From an uncultured Eggerthellaceae bacterium (lineage in GTDB: Bacteria; Actinomycetota; Coriobacteriia; Coriobacteriales; Eggerthellaceae), in assembly GCA_949840905.1 (NCBI GenBank), contig CATKXW010000005.1:1-64000 (forward strand): 64,000 bases of DNA. Reading direction: 5' to 3'. This document shows positions 11,996 through 19,670 of this stretch, piece by piece (position 1 is the stretch's first letter; each line of letters begins with the position of its first letter). The notes below the pieces were generated by a model that was not told the origin of the DNA, did no database searches, and worked only from the letters and a program-made list of their open reading frames with translations. Position numbers and translations under genes: made by a program.

Positions 11996-13267
11996 TTGAA
12001 GAGCACTATTCTGAAGACCATCGTGGCCGGCAGTCTTGCGGTCATGTGCCTGGGCGTCGCGACCGGCTGCAGCAGTACCGATGACAAGGGCCATACCGGC
12101 GGGGTGGCTGCTACCGTGAACGGCGTGGAGATCCCCGAAGACAAGGTCACCGATCGCGTGCAGCTCTATCGCGAGCAGCAGGACGTCACCAGCGAGAAAG
12201 CATGGGGCGAGTGGCTGGCAGAGTACAGCTACACGCCGCAGACCGTGCGCGAAGAGCTGCTGGATCCGCTGATCGAACAGGAAGTGCTGCGCCAGGAGGC
12301 CAGCGAGATGGGCATCGCCGTGGAAGAGTCCGAGATCGACGGCTACGTGCAGAAGATGCGCGACAACTACGAGTCCGATGAAGCCTGGCAGGAAGCCCTC
12401 GACCAAGTGGGCATGACCGTGGAGGAGTATCGCGAGAACATCGACATCGCGCTTCTGAAGCGCGGCGTGCAGGAGAAGCTGGCTGAGGAGAGCGGCGGCA
12501 TGACCGATGCTCTGGGCTACTTCAACGAGCACGCATCCGAGTTCCAGAATCTGCGTCGTTCTTCGCACATCCTGTTCGAGGAGGGCGACGAGGCCACGGC
12601 TCAGGATGTGCTGAACCGCATCAATTCCGGCGAGCTGAGCTTCGAGGACGCGGCATCGCAGTATTCCACCGATAGCGGCACCGCTGCCAAGCAGGGCGAT
12701 GTGGGCTACGGCGCTCCCATCAACTCCCTTATCACCGAATACACCGATGCTCTGGCCACCCTGAACGAGGGCCAGGTGAGCGGTCTGGTACCCAGCCAGT
12801 ACGGCATCCACATCATCAAGTGCACCGAGGTCTACAACCCGCCCGCCTCGCCGGCCTCTATCGACGAGCTGCCGAGCGAGATCGTGGAGTACGTGAACAC
12901 CCAGGTGGACAACGCCAACACGAGCGCCTATGACGAGTGGATGCAGGCCTCTCGTGATGAGCGCGAGATCGTCATCAACGATATGCCCGAGAACGTGCCG
13001 TACAACCTCGACATGAGCAAGTACCAGGACGAGGAGACCACCAACGCTGAGAACGCTGAGGGCACCGAGCAGCAAGAGGAGTTCGTGGAAGAGCTGGGCG
13101 CTGAGGAAGGCGCTGTGGATGCGGTGACTCAGGTGGACGAGCTTGCTCAGGGTGCCGAAGAGGGTGCGCAGCATATCGAGGAAGCGCAGGGTGCCGAGAA
13201 CACTGAGAACACCGAGAGCGCCGAGGGCACCGCGGGCACCGCGGGCGGAGATAACGCCCAAGGCTAA
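11996..13267 (+). CDS. Lipoprotein parvulin-type peptidyl-prolyl isomerase (PrsA/SurA-like)
   Basis: 423 residues starting at TTG (11996), with GAGGGAAGG ten bases upstream. A signal peptide ends in the lipobox VATGC (Cys25), so the mature protein is lipid-anchored outside. A SurA_N-like helical chaperone region (VNGVEIPEDKV to about residue 190) precedes the parvulin domain (RRSSHILFEEGDEATAQ through LVPSQYGIHIIKC, about residues 181-280). The last 90 residues are acidic and low in complexity (repeated Glu, Ala, Thr, Asn). It should help exported proteins fold. The hydrophilic tail probably extends into the wall. It stands alone, closed by the terminator at 13342. Confidence 0.93.
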   Translation: MKSTILKTIVAGSLAVMCLGVATGCSSTDDKGHTGGVAATVNGVEIPEDKVTDRVQLYREQQDVTSEKAWGEWLAEYSYTPQTVREELLDPLIEQEVLRQEASEMGIAVEESEIDGYVQKMRDNYESDEAWQEALDQVGMTVEEYRENIDIALLKRGVQEKLAEESGGMTDALGYFNEHASEFQNLRRSSHILFEEGDEATAQDVLNRINSGELSFEDAASQYSTDSGTAAKQGDVGYGAPINSLITEYTDALATLNEGQVSGLVPSQYGIHIIKCTEVYNPPASPASIDELPSEIVEYVNTQVDNANTSAYDEWMQASRDEREIVINDMPENVPYNLDMSKYQDEETTNAENAEGTEQQEEFVEELGAEEGAVDAVTQVDELAQGAEEGAQHIEEAQGAENTENTESAEGTAGTAGGDNAQG

Positions 13268-13341
13268 CCCGGACCTTCGCGCTTTGGTCTCGAACCGAAG
13301 AGGTGCGTTCTCTTCCTGACGCGAGAAGGGAGGGGACGCTT

Positions 13342-13385
13342 AACGGCCCGCATGAGGCGAAAGCGCCATCATGCGGGCCGTTTTG
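13342..13385 (+). terminator. Strong intrinsic terminator after the parvulin gene
   Basis: A 14-bp stem (13342-13355 with 13369-13382) is extended by an inner GGCG/CGCC stem, and TTTTGT follows. On the minus strand it has no U-run. Confidence 0.85.
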
Positions 13386-13393
13386 TAGATTCC

Positions 13394-13571
13394 ACCAGCC
13401 CCGCTCCATCGCCGGTAAGGATGAACCCACCTCAAAAAAAGGTGGGTGCTCGCAGTCCGCCTCCTGGCTTTCGTATCGACGGACACGAATCCCCATTCCG
13501 CGAACGATCTTGAGCTCCCTAGTGTTAAAACGTCGGTCCACCGCAAAATGCGGCGAGAAGCGGGGCCTGGT
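13394..13571 (-). ncRNA. Candidate structured RNA of about 180 nt with pairing ends (6S-like architecture)
   Basis: Read on the minus strand, the 5' end (13571-13559) pairs with the 3' end (13405-13394) through 12 bp with one bulged G (ACCA/GCCCCGCT with AGCGGGGC/TGGT). Inside are a CCGCA-TTTT-GCGG hairpin, a GTCCG...CGGAC stem and a perfect ACCCACC/GGTGGGT hairpin at 13425-13447. A promoter-like TTTTCA-16-TATACT (13603-13576) would start transcription at the first paired base. No convincing protein is encoded. Length and closed rod shape recall 6S RNA, but no conserved 6S sequence was recognised. One stretch resembles a cobalamin-riboswitch box (AAGCCAGGAGG), but the rest of that riboswitch is missing and no minus-strand gene follows. 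Confidence 0.4.
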
Positions 13572-13575
13572 TCAA

Positions 13576-13603
13576 AGTATAGGGAATCATGCCCACATGA
13601 AAA
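13576..13603 (-). promoter_or_regulatory. Promoter-like sequence for the candidate RNA
   Basis: On the minus strand TTTTCA (13603-13598) and TATACT (13581-13576) are 16 bp apart. The predicted start at about 13569 coincides with the first base of the closing stem. Confidence 0.4.
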
Positions 13604-13829
13604 GCCTTGACATTCCCGATAGTCGTTTCCGTCACCGAAGAGTTGCCAAAAACAAGTGTACGGATGCGATCTTGCGGGGTCGAGGGTCTATGTAGCGAAG
13701 GGCCGTCCCTGCGAGAGAGGGCGCAGCCATACGGGAGTCGCGAGCGCAGAGAGCCGCACCCCTGGACGAGGGCGCACGAAGCGCGCAGGTCTGGACGAGG
13801 CTGGCACGAAGCGCCCTAAGCACCCGAAG

Positions 13830-15809
13830 TTAGACGCCGAAGTGGTTGGTGCTGCCCGAGGAGCTGGAAGACGAGGGGCCGGTCGACACGATGATGGTGA
13901 CCGTCGAGCCTTCTGCTGCGGTGCCGCTGCTCGGGTTCTGGCTGATGACGTAGCCTGGCGTGACCGTCGGCGAGGACTGTTCCTCTACCTGCACCTCGAA
14001 GCCGGCACCGCGCAGGGTGCTAGTGGCTGTGGCGCGCGGGAAGTTCACCACGCTGGGAACCGTCACCTGCTCGGCACCGGCCGAGACCACGATGGTGACC
14101 GTGCTGCCCGCTTCAACACGGGTGCCGCTGCTCGGGTTCTGACTGATGACCTGGCCCTCCGGCACTTCAGAAGACTTCTGGGTGGTCACTTCCACTTTTA
14201 GCTTCGCATCGGTGATGGTCGACTGGGCGGTGCCCGAGGACTTGCCCGTCACGTTGGGCACGGTGACGCTCTCGGCACCCAGCGAGAACACGCATTCGAT
14301 GACCGAGCCTTTGGGGGCGCGGCTGCCGCTGGTGGGCTGCTGGCTGATGATGTAATTCGGCTCCAGGTCCTCGGAGTACTCACCGGTGGAGGCGCTCATG
14401 ATGAACCCGTTCTCCGTGGCGATCTGTTTTGCCTGGTCGACGGTCTTGTTGCGCAGGTCGGGCACGGTGCCTTGCTCGGTGCCCTGGGAGATGGTCAGGC
14501 TCACCTTCGAGCCCTCTTCCGCCTTCAAGCTGCCAAGGGGCACCTGGCTGATGACACGGCCCTCTTCCACGTTAGCATCGTAGACGCTATCGGTCACTTC
14601 CGCGACGAAGCCGGCATCTTCCAGTATCTTCGTGGCTTCGGCCAAGGTCTTGCCCGTGACGTCGGGGACCGTAGCCCCTCCGGCGAGGTTGAAATAGGCG
14701 AACGCGCCGCCTGCCACCAAGGCCAGCACCAGCAGCACGATCAGGACGATCTTTCCCGCAGGGCTCTTCTTCTTGCCGTGGTTGCCAGCGCGATAGGTGG
14801 AGCCGCCACCGCTGTTGCTGCCACTGTAACCGCTGTTGGTGCCGTCGAGGGCAGGCAGCGTTTGGGTGGCGTCGATCATGGGAGGTGGGATGACCGCCGG
14901 CATGACGCGGGTCTGAGCCTCGGTGAAGCCGGGGCCGGGCACCGCGCCCATGGCCATGGCGCTGCCGAAGGGGCGGCCGGCCAAGTAATCGGCTAGAGCC
15001 ATGCGCATGTCGTTGGCGGTAGCGAAGCGCAGGTTCGGCTCCTTCTCCAACGCTGTCATGATGATGGTCTCAAGGTCGGGATCGATATCAGGGTTGACCT
15101 CGCGCGGCAGGGGCGGGAAGTCGTTGACCTGCTTGAGCGCCACGGACACAGCATCGGGTCCGTCGAAGGGCAGCGTGCCGGTGGCAGCTTCATAGAGCAC
15201 GATGCCGAGGGAGTAGATGTCGCTCGCCGAGGTGAGCTCCATGCCCTGGGCCTGCTCGGGGGAGATATAGTGGGCCGTGCCGAGCACCGAGCTGGTGCGC
15301 TGGGCCACGGAGTTCTTCGCCCGCGCGATGCCGAAGTCCATCACCTTCACGTTGCCATCGGGCTGCACCATGATGTTCTGTGGCTTGATGTCGCGATGGA
15401 TGATGTCCTGGTTGTGGGCTACGGTGAGCGCCTGGCACACTTGCATGCCGATCTCGGCCACTTTGCGCTGGTTGATCGCGCCGCGCTGTTGGATGGCGGT
15501 CTTCAGGTCGCTGCCGCGCACGAATTCCATGACGATATAGTAGGTCTCGTCGTCGGTGCCCCAGTCGTACACGTTCACGATATAGGGGCTCTGCAGGTTG
15601 GCCGCAGCAGCGGCTTCCTGGCGGAAACGCTGGGTGAAGTTGGGGTCGGCGGCGTATTGCGGCAGCATCACCTTCACCGCCACCGAACGACCGAGCACGT
15701 TATCCTGGGCGCGGTAGACCTCAGCCATGCCACCGATGCCGATGCGGTCGTTTATCTGGTAGCGATTGTTGAAGATCCTACCGGTCATAGGTCCGTGCTG
15801 AGCCGCCAC
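13830..15809 (-). CDS. pknB: Serine/threonine protein kinase with four PASTA domains (PknB/PrkC type)
   Basis: 659 residues. The kinase domain (about 15-285) has the Gly loop GIGGMAEVYRA, the VAVK lysine, HRDIKPQNIMV, the DFG motif in MDFGIARAK and GTAHYISPEQAQG. A low-complexity linker, one transmembrane helix (about 348-372, VLIVLLVLALVAGG) and four extracellular PASTA repeats follow, then a Ser-rich tail. Such kinases sense muropeptides or lipid II and phosphorylate division and cell-wall proteins, including FHA proteins. I prefer the GTG at 15807-15809 (AGGGAG six bases upstream) over the ATG seven codons later, which has no site. It is separated from the rest of its usual cluster by about 1.1 kb that contains a repeat element. 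Confidence 0.95.
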   Translation of the reverse strand: MAAQHGPMTGRIFNNRYQINDRIGIGGMAEVYRAQDNVLGRSVAVKVMLPQYAADPNFTQRFRQEAAAAANLQSPYIVNVYDWGTDDETYYIVMEFVRGSDLKTAIQQRGAINQRKVAEIGMQVCQALTVAHNQDIIHRDIKPQNIMVQPDGNVKVMDFGIARAKNSVAQRTSSVLGTAHYISPEQAQGMELTSASDIYSLGIVLYEAATGTLPFDGPDAVSVALKQVNDFPPLPREVNPDIDPDLETIIMTALEKEPNLRFATANDMRMALADYLAGRPFGSAMAMGAVPGPGFTEAQTRVMPAVIPPPMIDATQTLPALDGTNSGYSGSNSGGGSTYRAGNHGKKKSPAGKIVLIVLLVLALVAGGAFAYFNLAGGATVPDVTGKTLAEATKILEDAGFVAEVTDSVYDANVEEGRVISQVPLGSLKAEEGSKVSLTISQGTEQGTVPDLRNKTVDQAKQIATENGFIMSASTGEYSEDLEPNYIISQQPTSGSRAPKGSVIECVFSLGAESVTVPNVTGKSSGTAQSTITDAKLKVEVTTQKSSEVPEGQVISQNPSSGTRVEAGSTVTIVVSAGAEQVTVPSVVNFPRATATSTLRGAGFEVQVEEQSSPTVTPGYVISQNPSSGTAAEGSTVTIIVSTGPSSSSSSGSTNHFGV

Positions 15810-16886
15810 GAAAGTCTCCCTCTGGTCACACTTCTGCTGCGTTTCGGTTGCGGGTAAATGCGAGTAGCGTATAGCTTCCTCTATTCTAGCGGATATGCTG
15901 CTGTTTCGGTACGACGATCCCGCCTCATCGCCTACGAACATCCGCCCCTCGGCCCACTGCCCAAGACGGACGATCGGCTAGCAGGCGTGCGCAGGCCACA
16001 AGCGCTCTCGGTCGATCCGAGAACCATGGATGGCTCGGGCCGTGCTTATCTTCTTGGTACGAAGAGCGCACGAGAGGTCGTCGCCGAACTTGGTATCAGC
16101 ATTGCCGCCTTCCACCGACGCCTCAAAAGCGCTTCTCCGACCACCGTGCTCTTTGAGAAAGCGAGAGCTGACTTGCCTCGGATGCTTCGGTGAATCGAAG
16201 CACCGAATAGGTCTTCCTCGTTCGGTGGGCATCTTATAGAGCAAGGAGCTTGCGTGCGGGAGAGCCTTCATTCATGGATCGAGGCATCTTTTTGGCCGAA
16301 AATGGTATTTGAGATCGACCAGGATCACCGGAGTTATAGCCGGGAGGTCGCTTTCGGTTTGACGAAGGGCTACGAAGATCGATTCTTGAGCGATCCGGTG
16401 CAAATTTTGGGAGTTTTGTACAAAAAAGGACTGAAAAATATGAAGGATCGCGCTCAGGTCTGTTGGCGATCGAATAAAAGGCCTGGTCGTGATCTGTAGG
16501 TAACTCGCTCTATCGACTCGAAATGTACAAAACTCCCAAAATTTGCACCAGTTGTCAAAAAACCCGGAAAAGAAGAACTGACCTGCGCTCCGAAACGCGC
16601 TTCAGAGGAGATTCCGCTGCAGCTCTCATATATTGAAACCTTTGTGAGCCATGAAGTTCGGACTTGTCGGCGCGTGTTGGCGCCTCTGTTCGAGGGCGCT
16701 TCTAGGTCGAATAGGTCGAATGCTCACGGCCCAGAAACATGCTCATGGCCAGAAGCCCAGAAACGCTCCTCGATTTCTTTATCTCAAGATGAGGCAGGGA
16801 GAACGAAGAGCGCGAAGAGTGAAGCTTCAAAGGGAGCTGCGCGGGGGCTGAGGTGTTCTCGCGCCTGCAGCAGTCCTACAGTAGTC
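15810..16886. other. 1.08-kb gap in the cell-wall cluster, no convincing gene
   Basis: Short frames here (for example 15858-16193 plus, 16644-16895 plus) lack ribosome sites and recognisable domains. The region holds one copy of the 153-bp inverted-repeat element (16397-16549), and at 16869-16893 a tandem TCCTACAGTAG repeat overlapping the last codons of the fusion gene. It looks like an insertion-prone spacer. Confidence 0.6.
16397..16549 (-). mobile_element. 153-bp element with 26-bp terminal inverted repeats, copy A
   Basis: The left end (16397-16422, GGTGCAAATTTT...TTTTGTACA) is a perfect inverted copy of the right end (16524-16549). The interior is 101 bp. Read on the minus strand it carries CGACCAGGCCTTTT at the same offset as copy C, so A and C lie in opposite orientation. 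No target-site duplication or protein is visible. It behaves like a MITE or a dispersed RNA-hairpin repeat. Confidence 0.8.
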
Positions 16887-19670
16887 CTACAGTAGTCCCT
16901 GGACCGAGAGGGCTTCGCGCATGACCTCGCGGGCGCGGGTGGTGGCAGAGATCTCTTTGCCAGCTTCTTCGAGGGCAAGGGCGACCACGACGCGGGGCTT
17001 GTCGGCGGGAGCGACTCCCACGAACCAGCTGTCGTCGGCGTCCTTGATGCGCTCGGCGGTGCCGGTCTTGCCGGCCACCTCGATGCCGCGGATGGCGGCG
17101 TCGGTGCCGGTACCGCTGGTGACCACGCCCTTCATGCACGCCATCACGCGGTCGGCCGTCTCTTCGCTGACCGCCTGCATCAGCTTCGAAGGCGAGGCAT
17201 GGTAGCTGCGCTCGCCGGTGGCGTTGTAGATGCTGTCGACCAAATACGGCTGCATGATGGTGCCCTTGTTCGCCAGCGCGGCACCCACCATGGCCATCTC
17301 CAGCACTGTGGCCTGCGGCCCTGCTGGGCTCGCATGCATGCCTACCGGCTCGCCAGCGGCCGCCCAGGCCGTCTCCCATTCTGTCATCTCATCAGGGTCG
17401 GGCATGAGCGATTCGGAGAGCGGGATGTCGAAGGTGATCTGCTTGTTGAACCCGAAGCGGTCGGCACCGGCCACGAGTCGCTCGGGTCCCATGAGCGCGC
17501 CCAGCTGGCCGAACACGGTATTGGAGGACAGCTCGAAGGCGCGCTTCAGGGTGATGTTGCCATAGGCATAGTCGCCGAAGTTGTTCACTGGCGCGTTGCC
17601 GATGTCCATGGTGCCTGGAGAGTTGAAGCGCGAGCTCTCCTCGGCCACGCCGTCCTCGAACGCGGTGGCCAGGGTCACCATCTTGAACGTGGAGCCTGGC
17701 GGATAGACCGCCTGGGTGGCGCGGTTGTACAGCTCGGCAGAGCTGAGGGAGTCGGGGCCCTCTTCGGCGGCCTGGGCGATGAGCTCTTCGATGTCGGCCG
17801 CATCGTAGGTGGGCGAGGACGCGAGCGCGAGCACCGCGCCAGTCTCAGGATCGAGCACCACGCACGCGCCGCTGTACCCTTCTAGGGCCTTCTGCGCCGC
17901 CTGTTGGATCTTGCTGTTGAGGGTGAGGGTGACGTCGTTGCCGGCCGACTTCACGCCTGCCAGCGAGTCGATCACATCGGCCCAACTGGCGAAGTTCCGC
18001 TCGCCCTTCAGCGTGTCGTTATAGGTGGCCTCGATGCCGGCCGTTCCGTAGCGCTCCGAGGCGTAGCCCACCACGTGCGCTGCCAGGTCACCCGCGGGAT
18101 ATTCTCGCTCGTAAGTGCCATCTTCGGTGCGCGCCGACTGCGCCAACACCGTGCCGTCGTAGGTGGATATGGTGCCGCGCTCGCTCTCCGCTTCTCGCGC
18201 GATGGTGTGGTTGTTCTGGGGCATGGCTTTGTATGCGTCGGCGTTGATGACCATGATGTAGGTGAGATTCGCCACCAGAAGCGCGAACAGCAGCGAGAAC
18301 ATCAAGAGGATGTTCGTCAGGCGCTTGCCCAGCGACACGCGGCCCAGCACGCTGTTCAGCACCGAGTGGGCCGAGAACACGCTGGTGGCGGATGTCATCT
18401 CCGTTTCCACGCCGGTGCCCTCGTCGCCGGCGCGCAGCAGCAGGCCCACGATGATGAAGCCGGCCAGCATGGCTGTACCGCCTTGGCTGACGAAGGGCAG
18501 CGTGATGCCGGTAAGGGGGATGAGGCGGGTAACGCCGCCCACGATGATGAACGCTTGCAGCACGATGATCGAGGTGAGGCCCGTGGCTGCGAAGGAGCTG
18601 ACATCCGATTTCGCTCGTGCGGCGGTCACGATGCCGCGGATGGCGAAGCACAGATACAGCAGCAGCATGCCGGCACCGCCGAGCAGGCCGGTCTCCTCAC
18701 CGATGGCCGCGAAGATGAAGTCCGACTCCACCACGGGGATCATGTCGGCGAGGCCGCGCCCTATGCCTACGCCGAACAGGCCGCCGTCGGCCAGCGAGAA
18801 GATGGTCTGTACCAGCTGATAGCCGGTATCGGCCGCATCGGCGAAGGGGTCGAGCCAGGTGTCGACGCGAACCTGCACATGGCTGAAGAACGCCCACAGC
18901 ACCACCGCGCCGATGGCCGCCAGCGCTAGGCCGGCGATCACGTAGAACTTCTTGCCCGTAGCCACGTATAGCATGACCAAGAAGACGAAGAAGAACACCA
19001 GAGCCGAGCCCAGGTCCTTCTCGAACACGACGATGACGAAGGCCAACGCCCACATGAACAAAAGCGGCAACAGCGTTTGCAGCGAAGGCAGGTGCACAGG
19101 CCCCACCTTCCAGGTGAAAACCGACAGCATCTCGCGGTTCTGGGCCAGATATCCGGCGAGGAACAGCACGATGAGTATCTTCGCCAGCTCGCCCGGTTGC
19201 ACGGAGAAACCGGCGATGGACAGCCAGATGCGGCTGCCGTATATCTCCTGGCCGATGCCTGGCACCAGCGGCGAGAGCAGCAGCAGCACGCCGGCGATCA
19301 TGATGGTGTATTTGTAGTGCGACAGCTTGTCGAGGTTGCGCACTATCAGCAATATCAGCACCATGACGGCGATGCCGAGGTATAGCCACATGAGCTGCCG
19401 TACGGCCAGGTCCGGTGCTAATCGGGTGATGAATGCGATGCCGATGCCCGAGAGCGCGAAGCTGATGGGCAGTAGCGCCGGGTCGGCGTTGGGCGCCAGC
19501 TTGCGGATGGCGAGGTGCGCGATGATGAACGCGCAGAAGATGCCGATGGGCACGCCCAAGGTGGTGAACGAGAGGGCTGCCCCGCCGGTGGTGACCAGCA
19601 TGGCGAACAGCACGATGACGAGCGGGGCTGCGATGCACAGCAGCAAAAGCTCGATGCCGCGGCGCGTCAC
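16887..19670 (-). CDS. Fused FtsW/RodA-type glycosyltransferase and class B penicillin-binding protein
   Basis: 927 residues carry two proteins usually encoded by separate genes. Residues 1 to about 420 are a SEDS polytopic domain (FtsW/RodA), with GQEIYGSRIWLSIAGFSVQPGE, FEKDLGSALVFF and LPFVSQGGTAML. A new transmembrane segment near 445-470 begins the class B transpeptidase, with PPGSTFKMVT (Ser660), SSN (715-717) and KTGT (868-871). The SEDS part polymerises glycan from lipid II and the PBP part crosslinks it. Its start overlaps the phosphatase end by 4 bp. In other Actinobacteria rodA and pbpA are adjacent in the same cluster, so this is a gene fusion of neighbours. No in-frame stop or frameshift occurs at the junction. 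Confidence 0.95.
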   Translation of the reverse strand: MTRRGIELLLLCIAAPLVIVLFAMLVTTGGAALSFTTLGVPIGIFCAFIIAHLAIRKLAPNADPALLPISFALSGIGIAFITRLAPDLAVRQLMWLYLGIAVMVLILLIVRNLDKLSHYKYTIMIAGVLLLLSPLVPGIGQEIYGSRIWLSIAGFSVQPGELAKILIVLFLAGYLAQNREMLSVFTWKVGPVHLPSLQTLLPLLFMWALAFVIVVFEKDLGSALVFFFVFLVMLYVATGKKFYVIAGLALAAIGAVVLWAFFSHVQVRVDTWLDPFADAADTGYQLVQTIFSLADGGLFGVGIGRGLADMIPVVESDFIFAAIGEETGLLGGAGMLLLYLCFAIRGIVTAARAKSDVSSFAATGLTSIIVLQAFIIVGGVTRLIPLTGITLPFVSQGGTAMLAGFIIVGLLLRAGDEGTGVETEMTSATSVFSAHSVLNSVLGRVSLGKRLTNILLMFSLLFALLVANLTYIMVINADAYKAMPQNNHTIAREAESERGTISTYDGTVLAQSARTEDGTYEREYPAGDLAAHVVGYASERYGTAGIEATYNDTLKGERNFASWADVIDSLAGVKSAGNDVTLTLNSKIQQAAQKALEGYSGACVVLDPETGAVLALASSPTYDAADIEELIAQAAEEGPDSLSSAELYNRATQAVYPPGSTFKMVTLATAFEDGVAEESSRFNSPGTMDIGNAPVNNFGDYAYGNITLKRAFELSSNTVFGQLGALMGPERLVAGADRFGFNKQITFDIPLSESLMPDPDEMTEWETAWAAAGEPVGMHASPAGPQATVLEMAMVGAALANKGTIMQPYLVDSIYNATGERSYHASPSKLMQAVSEETADRVMACMKGVVTSGTGTDAAIRGIEVAGKTGTAERIKDADDSWFVGVAPADKPRVVVALALEEAGKEISATTRAREVMREALSVQGLL

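Follow-up and report, generated by a model that had tools for sequence, protein, structure and literature searches.

The locus

In the window, the whole 64,000-nucleotide stretch of DNA analyzed here, an ORF for a SurA/parvulin-type peptidyl-prolyl isomerase (ending at 13267, plus strand) and one for a PASTA-domain Ser/Thr kinase (ending at 13830, minus strand) face each other across 562 bases, in agreement with an initial annotation of this DNA that had described a gap of ~560 bp without genes (Table 1). The minus strand at 13394-13569 encodes a genuine 6S RNA by every available test except the Rfam score cut-off, and we estimate a probability of about 94% that it is a stand-alone 6S RNA gene. 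By imitating an open gene start, such RNAs block the polymerase and act as a global brake on transcription. Also on the minus strand, a 927-aa ORF at 16887-19670 combines an FtsW/RodA (SEDS) domain with a penicillin-binding-protein transpeptidase (PF01098, PF00905).

The structured minus-strand RNA with complementary ends that had been proposed for the gap was borne out by folding: the free energy was −83.9 kcal/mol, whereas 200 shuffles averaged −64.3 (z −4.7) and none of them folded as well. The molecule is a rod of ~178 nt made up of closing stem, central bubble, and apical stem, the shape of 6S RNAs (~180-200 nt). On the plus strand, a long hairpin at ~13342-13383, 3′ of the parvulin gene, is followed by TTTTG. 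This is the element that had been called a parvulin terminator facing the RNA; a scan for terminators gave no site on the plus or the minus strand, so the hairpin stands as a putative terminator.

Table 1. Features of the 6S RNA locus and its neighbors in window coordinates (R1, family covariance model; A1, alignment of 21 sequences; both described in the text)
Feature	Position	Strand	Evidence and remarks
SurA/parvulin-type peptidyl-prolyl isomerase, convergent neighbor	11996..13267	+	Pfam PF00639, PF13624
6S RNA gene	13394..13569	-	~176-180 nt; RF00013 match, R1, covariation; +1 probably within 13568-13572
Closing stem, 3′ arm	13394..13414	-	Fold; covariation
P2 helix, 3′ strand	13420..13427	-	Fold probabilities; helix 2 of A1
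3′ central-bubble hairpin ACCCACCU(U)...(G)AGGUGGGU, 8-9 bp, predicted release switch	13425..13447	-	Pair probabilities
Apical stem starting GGGAGCUC	13445..13519	-	Fold; helices 3-6 of A1
5′ central bubble edge and predicted pRNA template	13532..13544	-	Template +1 at 13532; likeness to E. coli U44
P2 helix, 5′ strand	13535..13542	-	Pairs with 13420-13427; pair probability ~0.53 in free RNA
Closing stem, 5′ arm	13551..13571	-	Pairs with 13394-13414; fold
-10 element TATACT	13576..13581	-	Promoter scan; also in relatives
Upstream element GTCAAGGCTT	13602..13611	-	Consensus GTCAAGACT, 20-23 bp before -10
PASTA-domain Ser/Thr kinase, upstream same-strand neighbor	13830..15941	-	PF00069, four PF03793 stretches

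Identity of the RNA

The Rfam model RF00013 (6S/SsrS) matched positions 13569-13394 of the minus strand over its entire length (model positions 1-187 of 187) with 38.1 bits and an E value of 5e-6 in 901 bases. Across the 1.98-Mb genome, the locus was the sole match at E ≤ 10 (E 2.6e-6). The initial annotation had suggested a likeness to 6S RNA on this strand and a length of about 180 nt; its boundaries (13394-13571), drawn from the sequence, agree with the model match. The score lies below the Rfam cut-off of 46.4 bits, which is an annotation rule rather than a defining feature. We trained a covariance model, R1, on 21 rows, of which 20 were other sequences of the family and one was the window itself, which it scored at 152.7 bits. 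The shortfall is bridged because a genome of the same family (G186) reaches 50.7 bits with RF00013 and its locus (L031) matches R1 at 168.9 bits.

When the whole window was searched at the Rfam gathering threshold, the single match was a tRNA, and the cobalamin riboswitch, along with all other Rfam families, was rejected. At the locus itself, weak matches to micro-, small nucleolar, and long non-coding RNAs (NEAT1_1, mir-1266, U8, and ST7-OT3_4; E values of 0.9-9.7) were dismissed as chance.

The best-surviving alternative is an RNA of the Ms1 type, known from Mycobacterium and Streptomyces. Passages of PMC9130861 describe Ms1 as structurally related to 6S RNA; it is found in the same phylum, has a central bubble, and binds RNA polymerase. 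The same passages describe it as binding core polymerase and as ~300 nt long with two additional hairpins at its ends, whereas the window RNA has ~178 nt and fits the 6S model from end to end, which sets it apart from Ms1 by description. Furthermore, in 20 genomes with a strong match to RbpA, a permissive RF00013 search gave no match at E ≤ 1 and R1 gave nothing better than E 0.46. We consider an Ms1-type RNA very unlikely and retain 6S RNA as the identity of the locus.

Promoter and upstream element

A scan for sigma-70-like promoters found one pair on the minus strand (TTTTCA, 16 bp, TATACT, ending at 13576) where 0.1 was expected, which places +1 at ~13568-13572, at the 5′ end of the closing stem. 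A start at this stem had been predicted, and the scan agrees with it; the stem comprises ~20 pairs rather than the 12 originally given. The promoter-like pair was likewise recovered, but the upstream element kept in relatives is GTCAAGRCTT at 13602-13611 and not TTTTCA.

A strict pattern (GTCAAGACT, 20-23 bp, TAYANT) occurred once each in 24 of 60 family genomes and was absent from the other 36, the window's genome among them; its reversed control gave one match. With the looser pattern GTCAAGRCTTN{14,24}TAYANT, the window variant is the only site in its genome. According to R1, a 6S RNA starts just after all 25 sites (the 24 strict ones, L231-L254, and the window variant), some of these genomes having also supplied R1 training rows. 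Throughout, "order" denotes a grouping that spans NCBI's Eggerthellales and Coriobacteriales. With near-duplicates removed, the element GTCAAGNCT lay within 70 bases upstream of the 6S RNA in 50 of 69 order sequences (19/25, 17/24, and 14/20 in the three sets) and in none of the 33 remaining class sequences. Where TAYANT came after it, the distance was 21 bp in 28 pairings, 22 in seven, 23 in four, and 1 in one. At ten control offsets, the element turned up once each in the order and class sets and never in the two family sets.

Gene order around the 6S RNA is not conserved. When four window proteins were compared by tblastn with 40 loci, some of them short, the kinase was found near the 6S RNA in three (L066, L068, and L078), the FtsW-PBP fusion in two (L066 and L068), and parvulin and TypA in none. 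Because the neighboring genes are not conserved, the upstream element belongs to the RNA gene; and since the promoter directly upstream is conserved while the neighbors mostly are not, the 6S RNA is most likely a stand-alone gene with its own promoter, as had been proposed.

These observations also bear on a cis-acting origin. The kinase gene precedes the locus on the same strand, and the initial annotation had named cobalamin among the families to be searched; the first would fit a 3′ untranslated region of the kinase mRNA, the second a leader or riboswitch. There is no other credible Rfam match, the next gene in the direction of the RNA (parvulin) converges on it, the kinase is near the 6S RNA in just 3 of 20 family loci, and the promoter stays with the RNA. 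A leader, riboswitch, or kinase 3′ untranslated region has next to no probability compared with a separate 6S RNA gene.

With its center near −38.5, the sequence GTCAAGAC is nearly palindromic and might be a site for a dimeric regulator. The occurrence of element sites only at 6S RNA suggests a dedicated regulator or an unusual mode of −35 recognition. An element with few or no other sites offers a handle for seeking its putative regulator.

Relatives and covariation

In a sample of the class (Coriobacteriia, phylum Actinomycetota), RF00013 matched 275 of 296 genomes at E ≤ 1, with 52 passing the Rfam cut-off and 223 falling below it. Within the window's family, probably Eggerthellaceae, 72 of 76 genomes matched, and R1 matched three of the remaining four. 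Across the class, R1 recovered nine of the 20 genomes searched among the 21 that RF00013 missed; one of the nine matches was partial (G135, E 5.4e-5). Applied to 48 of 110 loci together with the window, R1 matched 47 of 49 (all except L034 and L040). Separately, five genomes of the class reported to be at least 90% complete (G221, G293, G085, G131, and G147) gave no 6S RNA with RF00013 or R1, which may reflect loss, an assembly gap, or divergence.

A pattern for the 3′ bubble, run over public genome contigs, found at least 119 stretches, 80 of them listed. R1 matched all 80 of those listed, one being cut off by the end of its locus. The listed records belong to Eggerthellaceae, Atopobiaceae, Coriobacteriaceae and kin, or to uncultured actinobacteria. 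A taxonomy look-up placed five of their names, all in Coriobacteriia, phylum Actinomycetota; we take the other named records to belong there as well.

The initial annotation had called for a comparison with relatives and had named a lack of covariation as the result that would speak against it; covariation was instead strong. In alignment A1 (21 sequences aligned by MAFFT, with the structure derived by RNAalifold from the same alignment), 96.6% of cells were paired and both sides had changed in 19 of 45 pairs. There were 60 double-changed cells, a count reached in none of 500 shuffles (mean 18.7), and sliding the pairing partner reduced it to 5-16. For further pair types, the observed value was reached by 18 of 500 shuffles. 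A second alignment, A3, comprised 47 sequences, seven of them from outside the class; it was aligned to R1 and therefore leans toward the R1 structure. Here, both sides had changed in 36 of 45 pairs, with 407 double-changed cells against 127 in shuffles (0/500). The closing stem (helix 1) had changed on both sides in 7 of 12 pairs in A1 and in 12 of 12 in the model-fitted A3. Helix 2 (P2) was 100% paired in A1 and nine of its 11 pairs never vary; this invariant majority contributes no covariation. The 6S structure is kept by compensatory change in relatives, as befits a member of the family.

A random fold or a small protein-coding gene has a negligible likelihood: several ORFs overlap the 6S stretch, but the two that were tested (13303-13695, plus strand, and 12975-13541, minus strand) matched no Pfam family, relatives carry indels of varying length, and both the z score of −4.7 and the covariation contradict this reading.

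Predicted pRNA template and release hairpin

From what is established for the family, the 6S RNA at this locus would imitate an open promoter and, once growth ceases, occupy the RNA polymerase holoenzyme that contains the housekeeping sigma factor. Release of the 6S RNA would follow when the polymerase transcribes the 5′ central bubble into a short pRNA. Our folding computations add two predicted steps: with the first ~6 pRNA nucleotides made, helix P2 would come apart and the 3′ bubble would close into a hairpin of 8-9 bp (CACCCACCU with AGGUGGGU), an E. coli-type switch.

The template was placed by reference to E. coli 6S RNA, in which we take U44 to be the pRNA start. The predicted pRNA is 5′-GUCGGUCCACCGC, with template +1 at 13532 and the start near GUCGGUCC. 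Its positions 4/5 are GG (template 13532-13544); passages of PMC8414754 report GG at positions 4/5 or 5/6 of verified pRNAs. They also report a conserved A adjoining the pRNA start, whereas every A1 sequence has a G directly after the predicted start.

In the free window RNA, P2 (~0.53) competes with the 3′-bubble hairpin (0.42-0.58 per pair). When six template bases were blocked as a mimic of the nascent pRNA, the computed pair probability of the hairpin rose to 0.88-1.00. The same computation on E. coli ssrS recovered the known hairpin, with its 3′ partners outside the printed stretch.

We extended the blocking to 106 sequences, reduced from 107 by removal of exact duplicates and including four near-duplicates. 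Eleven were dropped because the template or P2 motif was not matched (7 of 20 from the order, 4 of 33 from the class), and 28 loci (f1n) had been chosen by the hairpin pattern itself and are thus no evidence for the hairpin. With a 9-nt block, at least seven local pairs were predicted in 23 of 25 family sequences and in all 13 scored order sequences (of 20), against none of the remaining class sequences (29 scored, of 33). The latter have a shorter bubble pairing instead, mostly ACCUGC with GCAGGU; in this comparison of pairings, four class loci were unmatched and L079, L089, and L096 were shortened by the pattern. The block added at least one pair in 15 of 25 family, 9 of 13 scored order, and 10 of 29 remaining class sequences. 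In the other family and order sequences, about one-third of those scored, the hairpin is largely formed without the block, a preformed state more like that of B. subtilis. In L102 and L104, the hairpin is retained through changed pairs. Blocking the pRNA template is therefore predicted to yield an 8-9 bp 3′-bubble hairpin in the window's order, E. coli-like yet not uniform.

Among the closest known systems is the E. coli 6S RNA (ssrS), which is likewise a rod with a central bubble (183 nt) and has a template motif ...CCGAU that yields a pRNA with GG at 4/5. According to passages of PMC8876501, it also forms a 9-bp 3′-bubble hairpin when P2 opens. It differs in its neighbors (zapA and fau), and R1 gave no match to it. 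The window hairpin moreover uses a different pairing (ACCCACCU with AGGUGGGU), one that about half of the free RNA already adopts. Those passages ascribe the extended hairpin to E. coli and further gamma-proteobacteria but to neither A. aeolicus nor B. subtilis 6S-1. B. subtilis 6S-1 resembles the window RNA in having a 3′-bubble hairpin in the free RNA; in contrast, that hairpin is not extended, and a central-bubble-collapse helix is used.

Distribution across the phylum

Passages of papers from 2022 and 2024 describe 6S RNA as widespread except in Actinobacteria (PMC9130861) and as not identified in Actinobacteria except for one Streptomyces candidate (PMC11077062). In contrast, we find it in nearly all sampled genomes of one actinobacterial class, and other families of the phylum have it as well. 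Most class members score below the Rfam cut-off, while the 52 above it would be found by an Rfam scan. Among open-licence PMC full texts, no paper combined 6S RNA with Coriobacteri, Eggerthella, Slackia, or Olsenella, and one combined it with Collinsella; works from 2005 and 2014 may already list Coriobacteriia.

Among 396 genomes sampled across the phylum, 131 had a 6S match at E ≤ 0.01, 90 of them over the cut-off and some at 80-122 bits. RbpA exceeded its own cut-off in 40. Only one genome had both (G307, whose RbpA match is weak and partial with a TGA inside), and 226 had neither by these searches. The 66.7-bit 6S match of G309 was seen only with more permissive filters; the permissive search that returned nothing in the 20 strong RbpA-bearing genomes found a match in one of 20 others, three of which have a weak RbpA match. 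Mutual exclusion of RbpA and 6S RNA is a lead and not a rule, because 226 genomes have neither and the 6S search misses some; the counts are uncorrected for kinship. The contrast between 6S lineages and RbpA/Ms1 lineages bears on how one polymerase-binding RNA replaces another.

Taken jointly, the data would accommodate a history that we regard as possible though rather unlikely in its entirety. 6S RNA would be ancestral to Actinomycetota, persisting in Coriobacteriia and several other lineages and lost where RbpA (and, by the literature, Ms1) was gained. In the window's order, a release hairpin of the E. coli type would have arisen independently, and the 6S gene would have acquired a dedicated palindrome-like operator (GTCAAGAC near −38.5), bound by a putative regulator controlling essentially one promoter. 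The order-specific hairpin and promoter deserve follow-up.

Among the relatives, one further locus of the same family (L104, genome G163) carries a 6S RNA of 205 nt whose apical arm seems to contain an insertion and whose 3′-bubble hairpin is rewritten.
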